A stretch of DNA of 64,000 nt. Origin: Euzebya pacifica. Its GTDB lineage: Bacteria > Actinomycetota > Nitriliruptoria > Euzebyales > Euzebyaceae. Below are positions 3,429-46,006 of this stretch, in pieces. The stretch is from the NCBI RefSeq assembly GCF_003344865.1, contig NZ_CP031165.1:1555910-1619909 (forward strand), given 5' to 3'. Position 1 is the stretch's first letter. Every line of letters starts with the position of its first letter. Below the pieces are notes generated by a model. That model ran no database searches, had not been told where the DNA came from, and worked only from the letters and a program-made list of their open reading frames with translations. The position numbers were made by a program, and so were the translations under genes.

Positions 3429-6400
3429 CACATGACCTCCTCGTTGGCGATGCCGTCGGTGTCGACGACGGCGCCTGGTTCGTGCGGCACCGTGCGCTCG
3501 ACGCCGGCAAGCTGCTCGTAGTACCGCCAGCGCTCGTCGACGTCGGACTGCGCCAGGGTGAGCAGGTGCGCCGCCCGGACGGGATCGGTCCGCTGCAGCA
3601 TGGCGAAGCGAGCCTCCTGCCCGGTGAACGCCGACAACGGCAACGACGGCTTGCGCGAGTCCAGGTGGAACGGCTTGCCGTGTGCCTCCTCGGTCGGGGC
3701 GAACCGGTACAGCGGCCAGTAGCCGCTCTTCACGGCGTCCCGTTGGTGCGTCATGGACTCGCCCATGTCGAACCCGTGGGCGATGCAGGTCGAGTAGGCG
3801 AGCACCAGCGAGGGTCCCGGCCAGTCGGCTGCGCCCTGGAGCGCGCGGATCGTCTGAGTCTCGTTGGCCCCCAGCGCGATCTGCGCCACGTACACGGTGC
3901 CGTACTGCATGGCCAGCATGCCCAGGTCCTTCTTGGCGGTGGGCTTGCCGGACGAGGCGAACTTGGCCACGGCGCCGCGGGAGGTGGCCTTGGAGGCCTG
4001 CCCGCCGGTGTTGGAGTACACCTCGGTGTCGAGCACCAGCACGTTGATGTCCAGGCCGGAGGCCAGGACGTGATCGAGGCCGCCGAAACCGATGTCGTAG
4101 GCCCATCCATCGCCGCCCACGAGCCACGTGTCGGCACGCACGAGGGCGTTCGCGAGGGTGTCCAGCCGATCCAGCCTCTGGTCGGGCTCCGCGTCGGCGA
4201 TCGCCCGCCGCAGGGCCGCGACACGTTCGCGTTGGGCCCGCACGCCCGGCTCCGTGGACTGGTCGGCACCGAGCAGCTCGGCGACGAGCCCGTCGCCGAG
4301 GACGGCGCCGGTCTCGGTCAGCAGCTGTCGGGCCGTGTCACGCTGCTGCTCGTAGCCCAGCCGCAGGCCCATGCCGAACTCGGCGTTGTCCTCGAACAGG
4401 CTGTTGGACCACGCCGGACCTCGACCGTCGTCGTTGCGACCCCATGGGGTGGTCGGGAGGTTGCCGCCGTAGATCGAGGAGCATCCCGTCGCGTTGGCGA
4501 CGACCATGCGGTCGCCGAACAGCTGGGTCAGCAGCTTCAGGTACGGCGTCTCGCCACAACCGGCGCAGGCGCCGGAGTAGCTGAACAGGGGCTGCAGGAC
4601 CTGCGACCCCTTGACGGTGTCGTGGGGCAGGGCGTCGCGGTCGAGACGTGGGATCGACTCGAAGAACGTCAGGTTGGCCCGTTCGCGGTCGCGGTGGTCC
4701 TCCACCGGCGCCATGGTGATGGCCTTGTGGCTGGCGTCGGTCCTGCTCACCGCAGGGCACTGGCCGACGCACACCGTGCACCCGGTGCAGTCGTCGGGTG
4801 CGACCTGGATGGTCAGCAGGTGGTCGCCCTCGAGCTCGCGTGCCCGGAACGGCTTGGCGAGGAAGCCCTCCGGGGCGCCCTCGAGCGCATCGGGGGTGAA
4901 GACGTTCATCTTGATCGCGTCGTGGGGACAGACGATCGCGCACTTGCCGCAGTCGATGCACAGGTCTGGGTCCCAGACGGGGATCTCACTGGCGATCGCG
5001 CGCTTCTCGTACTGCGTCGTGCCGGTCGGGAAGGTGCCGTCGATCGGCATGGCGCTGACGGGCAGCAGGTCGCCCTCGCCTGCCAGCATCCTGGCGGTGA
5101 CCCGTTCGACGAAGTCGGGCACGCCATCGGGCACCGGCGGGCGCAGGCCCATCGTCGAGGTCACCGCCGAGCCGACGGGGACGGGGGTCAGCGCCGCGAT
5201 CGCGAGGTCGACGGCGCGGAGGTTGCGTTCCACGATCTCCTCGCCGCCCCGGCCGTAGGTCCGACGGATCGACGCGCGGATGGCCGCCATCGCCTCGTCG
5301 TCGGGCAGGATGCCGGCCAGGGCGAAGAAGCAGGGCTGCATGACGGTGTTGATGCGGCCGCCGAGGCCCGATTCACGGGCGATGCGGTGCGCCTCGATGG
5401 CGTGGACCTGCAGGTCCTTGTCGATGATCTGCTGCTGGACGGGTGCGGGAAGCGCATCCCACACCATGTCGGCGGGGAACGGTGCGTTCAGCAGGACCGT
5501 CGCCCCGTGTCGGGCGATGCCCAGGACGTCCCGGGTCCCGAGGAACCCGAACTGGTGACAGGCCACGAAGTCGGCGCCGTCCACGAGGTACGTGGACTCG
5601 ATGGGGGACGCCGAGAAGCGCAGGTGCGAGACCGTCTGGGCGCCGGACTTGCGTGAGTCGTACACGAAGTAGCCCTGCGCGTGGAGGCTGGTGTGCTCGC
5701 CCACGATCTTGACGGTGTTCTTGTTGGCACCGACGGTGCCGTCGCTGCCGAGGCCGTAGAACACTGCGTCGACGTCGCCGGCCGCCCTGGGCAGGTCGAG
5801 GTCGGTCGAGGGTGGCAACGACAGGTTGGTCACGTCATCGGTGATCCCGACGGTGAACCGGGCCGGCGGGTGTTCGGCAGCGAGCGCATCGAGGATCCCG
5901 GCGACCATGGCCGGGGTGAACTCCTTCGACGACAGGCCGTAGCGCCCGCCGACGACGACGGGAAGTCGATCCGCGGGTCGGGAGCCGTCCATGACCGCGC
6001 CAGCGAGCGTTGCGATCACGTCGGTCAACAACGGTTCGCCGACCGCGCCCGGCTCCTTGGTTCGGTCCAGGACCGCGACACGGGCGACGGTCGACGGCAG
6101 CGCTGCGAGCAGCGCCTCGGCGGGGAAGGGCCGGTACAACCTGATCACCGCGGCACCGACGCGTTCCCCGCGCTCGGCGAGGTGCCGGACGGTCTGGGCG
6201 ACGGCGCCGGTGCCGGAGCCCATCAGGACCACCGCCCGTTCGGCACGGGGGTGGCCGATCCAGTCGACGAGCCGGTAGCGGCGTCCGGTCAGCTCCGCGA
6301 ACCGGTCCATGGTCGACTGGACCGCCGCCGGGACGGCATCGTGGAAGGGGTTGGCGGCCTCACGGGCCTGGAAGAACACGTCAGGGTTCTGTGCGGTCCC

Positions 6401-38333: not shown

Positions 38334-38885
38334 ATGACCCACCTCATCGCCGTGCACCTGGACCTCCGCGATGTCCAGAGTGCCCGGGTCTGGGGCTGGA
38401 TCAGGGCGTTGGGGCTGCAGGCGGAGATCGAGGCACGACCGTTCAGCCTCGACGTCGCCGAGCCGTGGGACTGCGAGGCGCCGACGTTCGGGCTCGAGCT
38501 GCTGATGCTGATGGAGCAGGCCCGGGATCACGGTCCCGAGGCGGTCGCGCGGCTGATCGACACGGCCTACGAGCGGATCGGGGTCGACGCGGAGTCTGCG
38601 CACGCGGAGCTGGCCATGTGGTTGCAGGTCGGGGCGGCCGCCGGGCTGCCGCTGGCGGAGTACGACGAGGAGATGGAGCGGCTGAAGGCCGAGGTCGGCT
38701 ACTGGATGGCGGAGGCCCGAGAGGAGCACGGGATCCTCAGGCCACCAACGCTGGTGTTCGACGACGGAACGACCGCCTACGTCCAGCTCGACGCGCCCGT
38801 CGAGGACCCCGAGGACGCCCAGCGCTTCCTCGCCCTGGTCCTCGAGCGGCTGGCGACGATCGACGGGGCGGACAGGGGCGCGTAG
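38334..38885 (+). CDS. DsbA-fold-like protein lacking active-site cysteines
   Basis: The 183-residue protein resembles the DsbA/mycothiol-dependent oxidoreductase fold: an N-terminal strand (IAVHLDLRDVQSARVWGWIRALG), the strand EIEARPFSL, a helical insert (LELLMLMEQARDHG, LIDTAYERIG) and a C-terminal part PPTLVFDDGTTAYVQLD in the position of the cis-Pro loop. The Cys of the usual CPWA motif is absent, so redox activity is unlikely. This resemblance is from pattern only. It lies 24 bases upstream of prfB on the same strand, but prfB has its own -10 box. Confidence 0.5.
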   Translation: MTHLIAVHLDLRDVQSARVWGWIRALGLQAEIEARPFSLDVAEPWDCEAPTFGLELLMLMEQARDHGPEAVARLIDTAYERIGVDAESAHAELAMWLQVGAAAGLPLAEYDEEMERLKAEVGYWMAEAREEHGILRPPTLVFDDGTTAYVQLDAPVEDPEDAQRFLALVLERLATIDGADRGA

Positions 38886-38909: not shown

Positions 38910-40030
<1,121 letters not shown>

Positions 40031-40044
<14 letters not shown>

Positions 40045-40624
40045 CCGGTCCCCGAACCGGTCGATGCAGGTCGTCGGCGCCCCCCGCCGCAGCCTCTTCG
40101 ACGCGGTCCGGCCCGCTGACGTGCAGGCGGCCGGGGACCGGATCAGGGGGCCGGGTGGTGTGGCGCTCGCGGCGCTGCGCCATGCCGGCGTCACCGGCGG
40201 CGAGCTGACCCCGGCCGACGCCGTCGTCCTCGGCGGCCGGGCGTTCGGGACCCTGCGCGAGGGGTGGATGGGGGCGGGGGAGGACGACGCCCTTGCGCTC
40301 GGCTACGGGGTGGCCGCCATCCGCAGCCGGCGGACCGCAGGCGGACGCACCTGGGTGCTGCTGCGAACCGCCGCGTTCACGCAGGGGGCCACGATGGAGG
40401 CTGCCGCGATGCTGCCCGGGCTCGACCCGGTGCGCCTGTGCCCCGTCGTGGTCGGCCCCCGCAGCGATGCGGGACGGATCGTCGGCCTGCTGCGCGCGAT
40501 GGGGTTGTCGGTCCATCAGGCGGACAACGACGACGCGTGGTCGGTCCTCTCGGCCCTGGATCACGCCGTCCGTGATGCCGAGGACGGGGCGAGCGTTGTC
40601 GTGGCCACGCGGGAGGACCGGTGA
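40031..40624 (+). CDS. Degenerate transketolase N-terminal-like protein
   Basis: The 197-residue protein resembles a shortened N-terminal (TPP-binding) half of transketolase. ALRHAGVTGGELTPADAVV aligns with the 'hrAGsGHPGGslSaaDil' region, EDDALALGYGVAAIRSRR with the 'GqGlsvAvGmAla' region and TWVLLRTAAFTQGATMEAAAM with the 'vlLGDGElqEGqvWEAam' region. In the last, the essential GDGE has become RTAA, and the HPG is lost too. Cofactor binding is therefore unlikely. A GGGGGAG lies just before two ATGs (40031, 40034) that overlap the prfB end. Its stop overlaps the next gene (ATGA). The family call is inferred by eye. Confidence 0.55.
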
Positions 40625-41394
40625 CCAACGAGGTCGTGGCGTCGCTGGCGCAGTCGTTCGGGGAGGTCCTGGTACGGCTGGCAGGGGAACGGCCGGGGTT
40701 GCTGGTCGTCTCGGGACCCGACACGTCGCTGGTCAGCTGGTTCACCCAGATCTGGCCCGAGCGGCTGGTGACCGTGGCCCCCGCGGCATCGCGGCTGTCG
40801 GTCGGCCAGGGCATCCGGCGCGGGGGCGGGGAAGCCATCGTCGTGCTCGACGAAACGGTCAGCGTGCTGCCGTCGGGCCTGACCGCGCCGATGGTGTTGC
40901 TGAGCGCCGACCCGATGCACCTGGGGGCTGCCCATCGCGCCGGGACGACGGTCTGCCAGCCCGGCTGGGAGCTGGACCTGCCCGCCCTGCTCATCGGGGC
41001 GTTGGGCGCCGACGAACCCGTCGTGCTGCACCTGCCGGAGCCGCTGGCGGGCCTGCCCGAGCAGCCCGACCCCGAACGCACCTCCTTCGGCGACCCGCGG
41101 GTCCTGCACCGTGGCCGTCGCGGGCTGGTCATCGGTGCCGGCCCCACCGCGCCCGTTGCGGCGTGGGTGGCCCGGCGCCTGGCCGGGCAGCAGGTCGACG
41201 TCCTGGCGCTGGACAGCCACACGATGGGTGCCGACAGCGGCGTGGACACCGAGCTCCTCGTCGACCACCTGCTGGTCGGCCCGATCGACGCGCCGCGCGC
41301 CGGTGCCCTCGACGCGGTGCGTGTTGACCCGTCCGACCTGCACGGCCTCGTCAACGCCGTCCGCAGGGCGCTCCCGGGAATGGCGCGGAGCTGA
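40621..41394 (+). CDS. Degenerate transketolase C-terminal-like protein
   Basis: The 257-residue protein looks like the C-terminal half of a split transketolase: FGEVLVRLAGERPGLLVVSG, PERLVTVAPAASRLSVGQGI, a middle part ending CQPGWELDLPALLIGALGADEPVVLHLP, and a C-terminal domain HRGRRGLVIGAGPTAPVAAWVARRL. In active enzymes the second segment reads 'PeRfinvGiAEqnmvgvAaGl'; here the Glu that activates the cofactor is replaced (APAAS). It starts at a GTG overlapping the preceding stop by four bases, so the two halves are coupled. Both halves being degenerate argues for a non-catalytic or new role rather than recent decay, as the frames are intact. Confidence 0.6.
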   Translation: MTNEVVASLAQSFGEVLVRLAGERPGLLVVSGPDTSLVSWFTQIWPERLVTVAPAASRLSVGQGIRRGGGEAIVVLDETVSVLPSGLTAPMVLLSADPMHLGAAHRAGTTVCQPGWELDLPALLIGALGADEPVVLHLPEPLAGLPEQPDPERTSFGDPRVLHRGRRGLVIGAGPTAPVAAWVARRLAGQQVDVLALDSHTMGADSGVDTELLVDHLLVGPIDAPRAGALDAVRVDPSDLHGLVNAVRRALPGMARS

Positions 41395-41440: not shown

Positions 41441-42094
41441 ATGAGGGATGATCCGTACCTTCGCCTCGGGCTGCATCGCAATCCGTTCGTCGCCGAGGAC
41501 TCCCCGGGGGTCGACGAGGCCGTGCGGCTGGATGTCGGTGTGCCCGACCCACCCCCCACGGGCGTCATCGAGCTCGTCGGGTGCAAGGGAGCCGGCAAGA
41601 CGACCCACCTGATGGCGTGGCTGCGGGACCGTCCGGGACCCTACCGCCACGTCGACCCCGGGCTCGACCGGTTCGGGCGGTTCCCCATGCCCGAGGTCGG
41701 CGGGACCGTCGCCTGGGACGAGGTGGACCGGGTCCCCCCGCAGCTGCTGCGGCTCGCGGTCACGCGGGCACGTCGGCGTGGGGCACTCGTGCTGCTCGGC
41801 ACCCATCGCCGGACGGGGCTCGCCGACCACAGCCACGTCCTGCCCGGACCGACGGCGACGACGGTCCGGGCCTTCGCCGTCCGCCGGATCGAGGCAGTCC
41901 TGGTGGACGGGACCACCGACCGGCTGGACCTGCCCGACGCCCTCGCCGCGGACATCGCTCGCCGTGCGGACGGGTGCTGGTGGACCGTGGGTACCGAGCT
42001 GCACCGCTGGGCCGCCGCGCGAGCCGATGCCGCCTCCCCCGCGGCAGATGCCGCCTCCCCCGCGGCGCCGATGCAGGTCTGGAGCGGCTCGTGA
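41441..42094 (+). CDS. ExeA-like AAA ATPase
   Basis: The 217-residue protein opens with YLRLGLHRNPF, which resembles the start of ExeA/TniB-type ATPases, followed by Walker A (GCKGAGKTTHL, about residues 47-57), a likely Walker B (GTVAWDEVDRVP) and a sensor-like LVLLGTHRRTG. It lacks a recognisable peptidoglycan- or DNA-binding domain. A 14-residue Ala/Ser/Pro/Asp tail made of a duplicated unit ends the protein. It starts 8 bases after a TAGGCT box and its stop overlaps the next gene by four bases (GTGA). The partner of the ATPase is unknown. Confidence 0.6.
   Translation: MRDDPYLRLGLHRNPFVAEDSPGVDEAVRLDVGVPDPPPTGVIELVGCKGAGKTTHLMAWLRDRPGPYRHVDPGLDRFGRFPMPEVGGTVAWDEVDRVPPQLLRLAVTRARRRGALVLLGTHRRTGLADHSHVLPGPTATTVRAFAVRRIEAVLVDGTTDRLDLPDALAADIARRADGCWWTVGTELHRWAAARADAASPAADAASPAAPMQVWSGS
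42026..42067 (+). repeat. Duplicated 21-bp unit inside the ATPase gene
   Basis: Two tandem 21-bp units (42026-42046 and 42047-42067) differ at the last base only and encode DAASPAA twice. They lengthen the C-terminal tail without breaking the frame. Confidence 0.9.
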
Positions 42095-43914: not shown

Positions 43915-44877
43915 ATGACCACGCTGGACACCGACCTCGAGCAACGAACCGCCGCGTTCGTGGAGCACGTCCAGGCGGGCGGCACCGTCGAGGCCGACGA
44001 CTGGATGCCCGACGAGTACCGCCAGATGGCCATCAAGTTCATCGAGATGCACGCCAACTCCGAGCTGATGGGGGCGCTGCCGGAACGCGAGTGGATCTCC
44101 CGCGCCCCCACGCTGCGGCGGAAGATGTCGCTGACCGCCAAGGTCCAGGACGAGGTCGGCCACGGCCACCTCATCTACCGGGTTGCCGAGGACCTCGGAA
44201 AGCCCCGCCCCGAGATGTTGTCGGACCTGCTCAACAAGCGGACCAAGTTCCACAACGTCTTCCACTACCCGACCATGTCGTGGGGTGACGTCGCCGTGAT
44301 CGGCTGCCTCGTCGACGGTGCGGCGATCATCACGCAGACCGCGCTGCTGACCACGTCGTTGGCCCCCTACCGGCGGGTCATGAAGCGTGTCTGTGCCGAG
44401 GAGTCCTTCCACCAGCGCCACGGCGAGGACCTGCTGCTCGAGCTCGGTGGCGGCACGGAGGCCCAGCGCGAGATGCTGCAGGACGCCGTCAACCGCTGGT
44501 GGGTGCCCGTCATGCACTTCTTCGGTCCCAAGACCCCGGCCGAGAAGGACCGGCTGCTGTACTGGCGGATCAAGACCGAGACCAACGAGGAGCTGCGGCA
44601 GCGGTTCTTCGACCGCTACGTCCCCAAGCTGTGGGACCTCGGCATCTCCATCCCCGACCCGGCGCTGTCCTACGACCCCGACGCCGACCACTGGACGTGG
44701 ACCGAGCCGTCATGGGACGAGCTGCGGACCATCGCCAAGGGCAACGGGCCGATGACCGACACCCGCCTGTCGTGGCGTATCTGGATGACCGACGCCAACT
44801 CGTGGGCGCGTGAGCTGATGGGCGAGCCACGCCTGGACACCGCCGACTCGCCGGCGCTGCAGGGGGCGGGTGCCTGA
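43915..44877 (+). CDS. paaA: Phenylacetyl-CoA 1,2-epoxidase subunit PaaA
   Basis: PaaA is the catalytic di-iron subunit that epoxidises the ring of phenylacetyl-CoA with O2. The 320-residue length is normal. The di-iron ligands lie in EWISRAPTLRRKMSLTAKVQ followed by DEVGHGHLIYRVAED, and in RVCAEESFHQRHGEDLL. A GGAGG lies about eight bases before the ATG. It is the first gene of a tightly coupled paaABCD operon (TGATG with paaB), behind a strong promoter and operator-like repeats. Confidence 0.97.
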   Translation: MTTLDTDLEQRTAAFVEHVQAGGTVEADDWMPDEYRQMAIKFIEMHANSELMGALPEREWISRAPTLRRKMSLTAKVQDEVGHGHLIYRVAEDLGKPRPEMLSDLLNKRTKFHNVFHYPTMSWGDVAVIGCLVDGAAIITQTALLTTSLAPYRRVMKRVCAEESFHQRHGEDLLLELGGGTEAQREMLQDAVNRWWVPVMHFFGPKTPAEKDRLLYWRIKTETNEELRQRFFDRYVPKLWDLGISIPDPALSYDPDADHWTWTEPSWDELRTIAKGNGPMTDTRLSWRIWMTDANSWARELMGEPRLDTADSPALQGAGA

Positions 44878-45200
44878 TGGGCCGCTACCCCGTGCTGCAG
44901 AAGCGTCGCGAGGACGACGACTGGGAGACCGTCGGCTACGTCCGTGCCCCCGACCGCGAGATGGCGCTCGGCTTCGCCCTCCACTCCTTCTTCCGCCACG
45001 GCGAAGGAGTCGACTGCGCGATCCGCGACGGCGACGACGTCGTGCCGGTCGCCGACAGCCGTGACGTCGTCGGCGCCACGGACAAGTCCTACCGGGTGTC
45101 TGCGGGCTATCCGCTCGGTCCGAAGCGTCGACGCGCCGAGCAGCGCATCGCCGACCTCGGTGTCCGCATCGAGGGCACGCGCCCGGGGGTGCACCAGTGA
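44877..45200 (+). CDS. paaB: Phenylacetyl-CoA epoxidase subunit PaaB
   Basis: The 107-residue small subunit bridges the PaaA-PaaC heterodimers. The typical start WETVGYVRAPDREMALGFALHSFFRHGEGVDCAIRDGDDVV and the YRVSAGYPLG segment are present. The ATG overlaps the paaA stop by one base, and its own end overlaps paaC by four (GTGA). The C-terminal tail is basic (GPKRRRAEQR). No enzymatic residues are expected. Confidence 0.95.
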   Translation: MGRYPVLQKRREDDDWETVGYVRAPDREMALGFALHSFFRHGEGVDCAIRDGDDVVPVADSRDVVGATDKSYRVSAGYPLGPKRRRAEQRIADLGVRIEGTRPGVHQ

Positions 45201-46006
45201 CCCGGATGACCAACGTGCCCCGCGCCACCCGCGGATCCTGGACGGCCCCGGACGATCCGAAGCTGGCCCTCGTGCTGTCGCTCGCCGACGACGAGCTGAT
45301 GATCGGGCATCGCCACTCCCACTGGACCGGGGTTGCCCCCACGTTGGAGGAGGACCTTGCCTTCTCCTCCCTGGCCCAGGACGAGATCGGGCACGCCGCG
45401 ATCTGGTACGGCGTCGCCGAGGAGCTGACGGGGGAGGACGAGGACACCCTCGCCTTCGGCCGCCGGCCCGAGGAGTACCGCCACGCCGTCCTGCTGGAAC
45501 GCGAACCCGGCGACTGGGCCTACACCATCGTCCGGCAGCACGCCTACGACCTGTACGACCACGTGCGCATGTCGGTGCTGACGGAGTCCACCGACGCCTC
45601 GATCAACGGGGTGCTCGGCCCGATCATGCGTGAGGAGCGGCTGCACCGTGCCCACGCCCGGGCGTGGCTCGATCGGGTTGCCGACGGCCCCGGTGACGGC
45701 ATGGAGCGGATCCGTGCGGGTGCGCGACGGATGCTGGCCGAGGTCGGTGGCCTCTTCGAGACCCTCCCGTGGGAGGAGGAGCTGGTCAAGGTCGGCATCC
45801 TCCCGGTGTCCTCGCAGGGCATGTTCGAGCCGTGGCGCCAGGCGTTGGCGGAGGACTACGAACGGTTCGGCCTGACCGACACCCTCGACGCCATCGACGA
45901 GGCCGGCGGCCTCGGCGGGCGGCAGGGGACCCACACCGAGGACTTCCCCCCCATGTGGGAGGAGATGACGGCGCTGTACCGCGAGCACCCGGGGGCGACG
46001 TGGTGA
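45197..46006 (+). CDS. paaC: Phenylacetyl-CoA epoxidase subunit PaaC
   Basis: PaaC is the structural, ferritin-like partner of PaaA. The 269 residues contain ALVLSLADDELMIGHRHSHW, AFSSLAQDEIGHAAIWYGV and EERLHRAHARAWLDR, matching the family. It begins at GTG overlapping paaB and ends in TGATG with paaD. The length is normal. The usual role is to support the di-iron subunit rather than to react with oxygen. Confidence 0.95.
   Translation: MTRMTNVPRATRGSWTAPDDPKLALVLSLADDELMIGHRHSHWTGVAPTLEEDLAFSSLAQDEIGHAAIWYGVAEELTGEDEDTLAFGRRPEEYRHAVLLEREPGDWAYTIVRQHAYDLYDHVRMSVLTESTDASINGVLGPIMREERLHRAHARAWLDRVADGPGDGMERIRAGARRMLAEVGGLFETLPWEEELVKVGILPVSSQGMFEPWRQALAEDYERFGLTDTLDAIDEAGGLGGRQGTHTEDFPPMWEEMTALYREHPGATW

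Follow-up and report, generated by a model that had tools for sequence, protein, structure and literature searches.

In Euzebya pacifica, two small overlapping genes directly behind prfB, the gene for release factor 2, follow the outline of a transketolase divided into an N-terminal and a C-terminal half, and neither half shows the motifs with which a transketolase holds its cofactor, TPP. The locus raises the question of whether such a pair is an enzyme working in an altered manner, a remnant in decay, an accident of sequence, or a pair of proteins retained for another task. A first-pass annotation of the window (the whole 64,000-nucleotide stretch of DNA analysed) had suggested a maintained pseudoenzyme pair or a new function, and motif loss, dN/dS, and profile homology all support the first of these suggestions. 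The reading favoured here, with good though not complete confidence, is hence that the two proteins form a pseudoenzyme pair, maintained and TPP-independent, whose origin lies in a two-gene (split) transketolase.

The gene pair and its attachment to prfB

All features described below lie on the forward strand. The N-half gene (40031–40624; ATG start, 197 aa) encodes a degenerate transketolase PP (TPP diphosphate-binding) domain, and the C-half gene (40621–41394; GTG start, 257 aa) encodes a degenerate Pyr domain together with a better-kept transketolase C domain. Direct reading bears out the first-pass annotation in that both frames are open over these coordinates. The 4-base overlap that it described between the two genes is likewise present; its sequence, however, is not ATGA but GTGA, in which the GTG start of the C-half and the TGA stop of the N-half are combined.

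Upstream, prfB (38910–40044) displays the usual programmed +1 frameshift of release factor 2 genes. Its 5′ part, read directly, begins with ATG at 38910 and continues to the slip site CTTTGAC at 38976–38982, with the zero frame encoding MATEQRNALAEYRTKLAQVKEYL and TGA next (window 38910–38982), and proceeds in the +1 frame from there onward; the part at 39103–40041 matches TIGR00020 at 453.5 bits, above the cut-off of 370. A similar zero-frame end (EYL, then stop) is also found at L021, L023, L024, L025, and L097. In the window, the 3′ end of prfB overlaps the start of the N-half gene by 14 bases, and because successive genes overlap, prfB, the N-half, and the C-half constitute three chained genes.

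This arrangement is largely shared by the relatives of the pair, so that the family is tied to prfB, a link absent from the first-pass annotation. The distance from the end of prfB to the N-half start ranges from −14 to +7 bases in all eight carriers with the three genes on one contig, and the N-half precedes and adjoins the C-half—the layout of split transketolases—in 9/9 members whose two genes share a contig. Overlap between the N-half stop and the C-half start is kept at eight of nine junctions (the exception, G013, has a 19-base gap), and the reading frames are unbroken in all eight contiguous pairs. The likely start of the N-half of G003 is GTG at 5623 of L023; this sequence entered the alignments from position 5632, which is not a start codon. 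With its start either within prfB or immediately behind it, the N-half is probably translated in coupling with release factor 2, and gene chaining would probably keep synthesis of the pair in step with this factor.

Descent from transketolase and loss of the cofactor site

Used as single queries, the window N-half and C-half retrieve nothing significant from Pfam, NCBIfam, or the PDB. Their best PDB matches are a zinc peptidase for the N-half (E 0.36) and the pyruvate dehydrogenase 1ik6 for the C-half (E 0.11), and the sub-threshold Pfam matches are Caa3_CtaG (E 0.0098; 15.7 bits against a cut-off of 27.7) and Pyr_redox_2 (E 0.097). Relatives were gathered from whole genomes because of this lack of significant single-sequence matches. 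Even when these members are scanned singly, Transketolase_N is detected in just two of seven N-halves (best E 0.00068) and Transketolase_C in two of eight C-halves (best E 0.002). Single-sequence AlphaFold2 models of the two proteins are of poor quality, with mean pLDDT values of 48.7 and 37.1.

Profiles are more informative. The N-half profile, built from seven members, finds as its best PDB match 6yak_AAA (E 2.6e-6), which is the N-terminal component of a split transketolase, with other transketolases and DXS lower down. The C-half profile (eight members) matches best the E1-beta proteins of 2-oxo acid dehydrogenases, led by 1um9_B (E 5.3e-8, profile columns 101–230 of 254), with further matches to DXS and to the split transketolase C chain 6yaj_AAA (E 8.6e-5). 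Matches of this profile to vitamin B12-binding proteins, which cover 43 columns at E 0.0017 and worse, were taken as chance.

Comparison by hhalign with genuine sets taken from the searched genomes (7 transketolase N domains and 10 Pyr/C regions) yields scores of 111.3 for the N-half (98.7%) and 107.2 for the C-half (98.4%). The probabilities range over 98.7%–99.3% and 98.4%–99.0%, respectively, and the alignments of both halves span almost the full length. Controls made from the sets themselves, in which the halves were swapped, the templates reversed, or the template columns shuffled (60 templates for each half), do not exceed a score of 19.4 or a probability of 0.7%. The genuine N set comprises 7 of the 10 N-type loci extracted; L119, L120, and L121, which are E1-type N loci of the window's own genome with the motifs GDGE, GDAE, and GEGA, were left out. 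L042 was omitted from the genuine C set as a simple pattern missed its Glu, which is nevertheless present (ISES). On these profile comparisons, both halves are homologous to the matching parts of the transketolase superfamily, in agreement with the initial description of N- and C-terminal transketolase halves. The notion that high-GC reading frames merely resemble transketolase by chance, being unrelated to it, draws on the failure of single sequences to match any Pfam, NCBIfam, or PDB entry significantly; its probability is negligible, however, since both halves match the correct parts of one enzyme, in the correct order and with clean controls.

The cofactor-binding residues were examined in a merged alignment of 9 N-halves and 10 C-halves; the N-half of G026, split over two contigs, was left out, and that of G014 was included without its 5′ end. 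Within the window N-half, the columns of the metal/diphosphate motif [GS]DG[ED], as defined by the 7 genuine N domains, are occupied by RTAA (40364–40375). In the C-half, the column of the TPP-activating Glu, as defined by 10 genuine Pyr domains, lies within APAAS (40777–40791). The two substitutions first noticed by eye—RTAA for GDGE, and APAAS at the 'AEQ' Glu—thus fall in the very columns concerned.

Across the family, the His of the GH motif is kept in none of the nine N-halves, the metal Asp in one (G014), and the metal Asn in one (G015, where the alignment is doubtful), as opposed to 7/7 genuine N domains in each case; the window N-half has P in the Asn column. The activating Glu is kept in 1 of 10 C-halves (G024) and in 10/10 genuine Pyr domains, and six further genuine Pyr domains outside the alignment set all possess it. 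Within the genus, the [GS]DG[ED] block reads RTAA, RTAA, RLGA, and RSRA, and outside it DADA, DAAA, GPGA, EDAS, and DEDA. A Gly four columns past the third residue of this block is retained in 9/9 N-halves. The stretches between motifs are also reduced: GH and GDG are separated by 41 residues in the genus and 47–54 outside it, compared with 76–88 in genuine proteins, and the activating Glu and a conserved Pro by 56–60 residues in C-halves, compared with 80–87, so that the shortening amounts to about 22–47 residues (N) and 20–31 residues (C). None of the motifs of a functional transketolase (GDG...N, the GH His, and the activating Glu) is present in the window pair, from which the TPP- and metal-holding residues and loops are gone. 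Nor does any orthologous pair carry an intact motif set—a check that the first-pass annotation had proposed—with single residues left in G014, G015, and G024.

These residual residues, Asp in the metal column of G014 and Glu in the activating column of G024, are what a TPP enzyme with relocated ligands could point to. Such an enzyme is highly improbable, as His, Asp, Asn, and Glu are jointly absent from the window pair and the inter-motif stretches are shortened in both halves. The acidic residues near the metal site outside the genus, and the Glu of G024, may nonetheless signify weak or altered ligand binding in those members.

Certain other residues are conserved instead. Arg58 of the C-half (40792–40794), three columns past the lost Glu in the alignment, is found in 10/10 C-halves, whereas the same column holds I, M, A, or G in 10 genuine proteins. 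In the N-half, the position immediately preceding the metal-Asp column is Arg in all four congeners and G or S in genuine proteins. The congeners also share the block ADN(D/N)DAWSV(L/V)SALDHA in the N-half and DHLLVG in the C-half; the remaining invariant columns across all members hold G, P, D, L, a further Arg (R160, in the C-half), and the initiator Met. Arg58 and the congener N-half Arg may mark a re-used cleft, and the invariance of Arg58 near the lost Glu hints that this cleft still binds something. A remodelled cleft between the halves could thus accommodate a new ligand or a new TPP-free reaction, making the pair a neofunctional enzyme or sensor, for which the two Arg residues and the conserved blocks in both halves may be cited. 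This alternative is considered unlikely: the N-half Arg is not kept outside the genus, where the position reads D, D, G, E, and D, and the invariant columns do not supply a full new catalytic set.

The closest genuine relatives are recognised by the N profile itself. Among the 16 non-pair genomes of the phylum that match it, [GS]DG[ED] is present in 16/16, the GH pattern in 13/16, and the Glu, sought with a simple pattern, in 14/16 at the same locus. The genuine Pyr/C profile matches a frame at all 16 of these loci, which is separate from the N frame in 15; at L134, both parts lie in one frame. Given that these relatives are mostly two-gene and motif-intact, a two-gene transketolase is the most likely ancestor of the pair. 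Within the same taxonomic order, split-transketolase-type N genes with SDGE and Asn intact are also present at L070 (G006) and L073 (G002), the latter in a genome that possesses the dead pair as well.

An intact transketolase, for which the first-pass annotation had proposed to look, is encoded elsewhere in the window's own genome: a full-length gene with GH, SDGD, and Glu. Full-length transketolases exceed the family cut-off in 9/10 carriers (the motifs were read in the window's genome), and in G013 no full-length match is found at E 1e-30. The possibility that the pair serves as the sole transketolase of the cell was ruled out on account of this coexistence in 9 of 10 carriers.

Selection and distribution

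Between G000 and G002, the closest species, the N-halves share 95% and the C-halves 91% identity, and omega (dN/dS) is 0.076 and 0.089, respectively; the values for other genes are 0.030 (prfB), 0.045 (PaaA), 0.135 (DUF2071), and 0.144 (the gene at 38334). The pair is under purifying selection in its own genus. The remaining congener pairs are more divergent, with 42%–64% identity for the pair against 79%–83% for prfB, and with omega of 0.28–0.84 at dS of 0.73–1.11; between G013 and G026, omega is 0.27 for the C-half and 0.05 for ftsX. This fast divergence, together with the fact that the pair was not found in 20/30 genomes of the order, would suit a decaying remnant of a split transketolase. 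Decay is nevertheless very unlikely, because dN/dS is low and the frames are open: the eight contiguous pairs are uninterrupted, the overlap persists at 8/9 junctions, and omega is only 0.08–0.09 between the closest species. The initial judgement that the pair is maintained rather than decaying accordingly holds within its own genus.

Profile searches of the order's 30 genomes show the pair in 10, namely G000–G003 (own genus), G013, G014, G015, G024, G026, and G029, and do not find it in the other 20. The rest of the class (36 genomes) yields no full-length profile match to it. Searches with single proteins recover the C-half in 9/41 genomes, including G022, and the N-half in 4/30; G022, whose weak match is by eye an ordinary E1-beta adjoining E1-alpha, was not retained as a family member. 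Many class-wide matches of the C profile cover only columns 100–215 or thereabouts and were excluded from the pair count, some having been read and others judged by coverage. Partial matches to the early columns of the C profile occur at G057:C241 (with an internal TGA), G063:C125, G053:C231, and G040:C5.

A phylum sample of 396 genomes, with 6–8 candidates scored per genome, gives 23 genomes with the N profile at E 1e-13 (7 with the pair and the 16 with genuine transketolases) and, with the C profile at 1e-13, the same 7 pair genomes together with partial matches in G073, G225, and G327. No relative of the pair was found in plasmids by tblastn, nor in a genome-contig collection—which may omit records near the window's genome—queried with the window C-half and the four-congener alignment.

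Outside the genus, ftsE lies 3′ of the pair, which is not so within the genus. Among 36 non-carrier loci that were read (18 from the order and 18 from elsewhere in the class), ftsE is the next gene after prfB in 32. The four others (G017, G020, G021, and G022) have neither ftsE in that position nor the pair, and the loci of G017 and G020 reach the contig end; in G025 and G028, the prfB search gave no match over the cut-off. By eye, prfB is followed at L094 (G021) by a glycosidase-like frame and at L095 (G022) by a short epimerase-like frame, both on the opposite strand. In a prfB/FtsE/FtsX tree, the carriers are scattered over several places and many inner nodes are weakly supported. The distribution fits presence of the pair in the ancestor of the order followed by repeated loss; alternatively, it may stem from lateral spread.

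Candidate roles and comparable proteins

Membership of an enzyme family, loss of the catalytic motif, and maintenance of the gene—the attributes of a pseudoenzyme—are all found here, with the fold inferred from homology. As the cofactor site has been lost and yet the genes are kept under selection, the function is probably other than transketolase chemistry. In a maintained pseudoenzyme pair, the N and C chains would still fold and assemble in the manner of transketolase, the assembled pair would bind no TPP, and it would exert its effect by contacting proteins, its most likely role being that of a non-catalytic regulator of, or scaffold for, some other protein. A first guess at the partner, tentative and rather doubtful, falls on the catalytic enzymes of transketolase fold in the same cell, by analogy with dead paralogues that control live ones.

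Among known systems, the pair most resembles in layout the split-gene transketolase of Carboxydothermus hydrogenoformans (ChTK-N/ChTK-C; PDB 6YAK), whose TPP/metal ligands include Lys68, His70, Asp148, Gly149, Glu150, Asn178, and, from the C chain, Glu55 (PMC7661550). The pair shares with ChTK and with two-gene relatives in the phylum adjacent genes in the order N (PP), then C (Pyr + C), and ChTK-N is the best PDB profile match of the N-half. Unlike ChTK, however, the pair lacks the ligand residues in the matching columns and is short, at 197 + 257 aa. As for the E1-beta proteins favoured by the C-half profile, the Glu that the C-halves have nearly all lost is intact in the frames of E1-beta type that were aligned, and no E1-alpha, E2, or E3 gene was recognised among the neighbours of the pair that were read.

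A second comparison is human TKTL1, a transketolase-like protein whose N domain lacks 38 residues; human transketolase with this 38-residue deletion is reported to show no specific cofactor binding and no detectable activity (PMC3485151). The inactivity of TKTL1 is disputed (PMC6334435). Both TKTL1 and the pair have a large deletion in the active-site region of the N domain; TKTL1, though, is a single chain close to TKT, whereas the pair is split and bacterial and has lost the motif residues too. Regulation of a live enzyme by a dead relative is reported for the trypanosome AdoMetDC prozyme (PMC6221367) and plant PDX1.2 (PMC6829848), in which an inactive protein modulates its active counterpart; the pair may, by analogy, behave likewise.

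A more elaborate proposal combines the re-used cleft with the position behind prfB. Here, the pair would be a new TPP-free two-subunit factor derived from a split transketolase, its cleft marked by the invariant Arg beside the lost catalytic Glu and its production wired to translation termination: synthesis would follow release factor 2, whose level is set by the prfB frameshift, and the pair would in turn act back on termination, on the rescue of ribosomes, or on flux through the pentose-phosphate pathway. This proposal is regarded as a distinct long shot.

Pseudoenzymes as a class are well known. A limited literature search, however, produced no bacterial pseudo-transketolase or dead split transketolase among the matches listed. 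If the pseudoenzyme reading is correct, a two-gene enzyme has here, within a limited lineage, given up the cofactor site in both of its subunits together and yet been retained, and the pair would allow one to ask what use is made of a transketolase fold without TPP. Its steady position behind prfB offers a testable lead on regulation.

The gene 3′ of the pair (window 41441–42094) encodes 217 aa with a P-loop-like GCKGAGKTT and matches nothing in Pfam at E 0.01. G002 has a similar frame behind the pair, but in G001 and G003 the genes in this position are different. Further downstream (43915–46003) are phenylacetate oxygenase genes of the PaaA, PaaB, and PaaC type, with PaaB recognised by Pfam and the others by eye.
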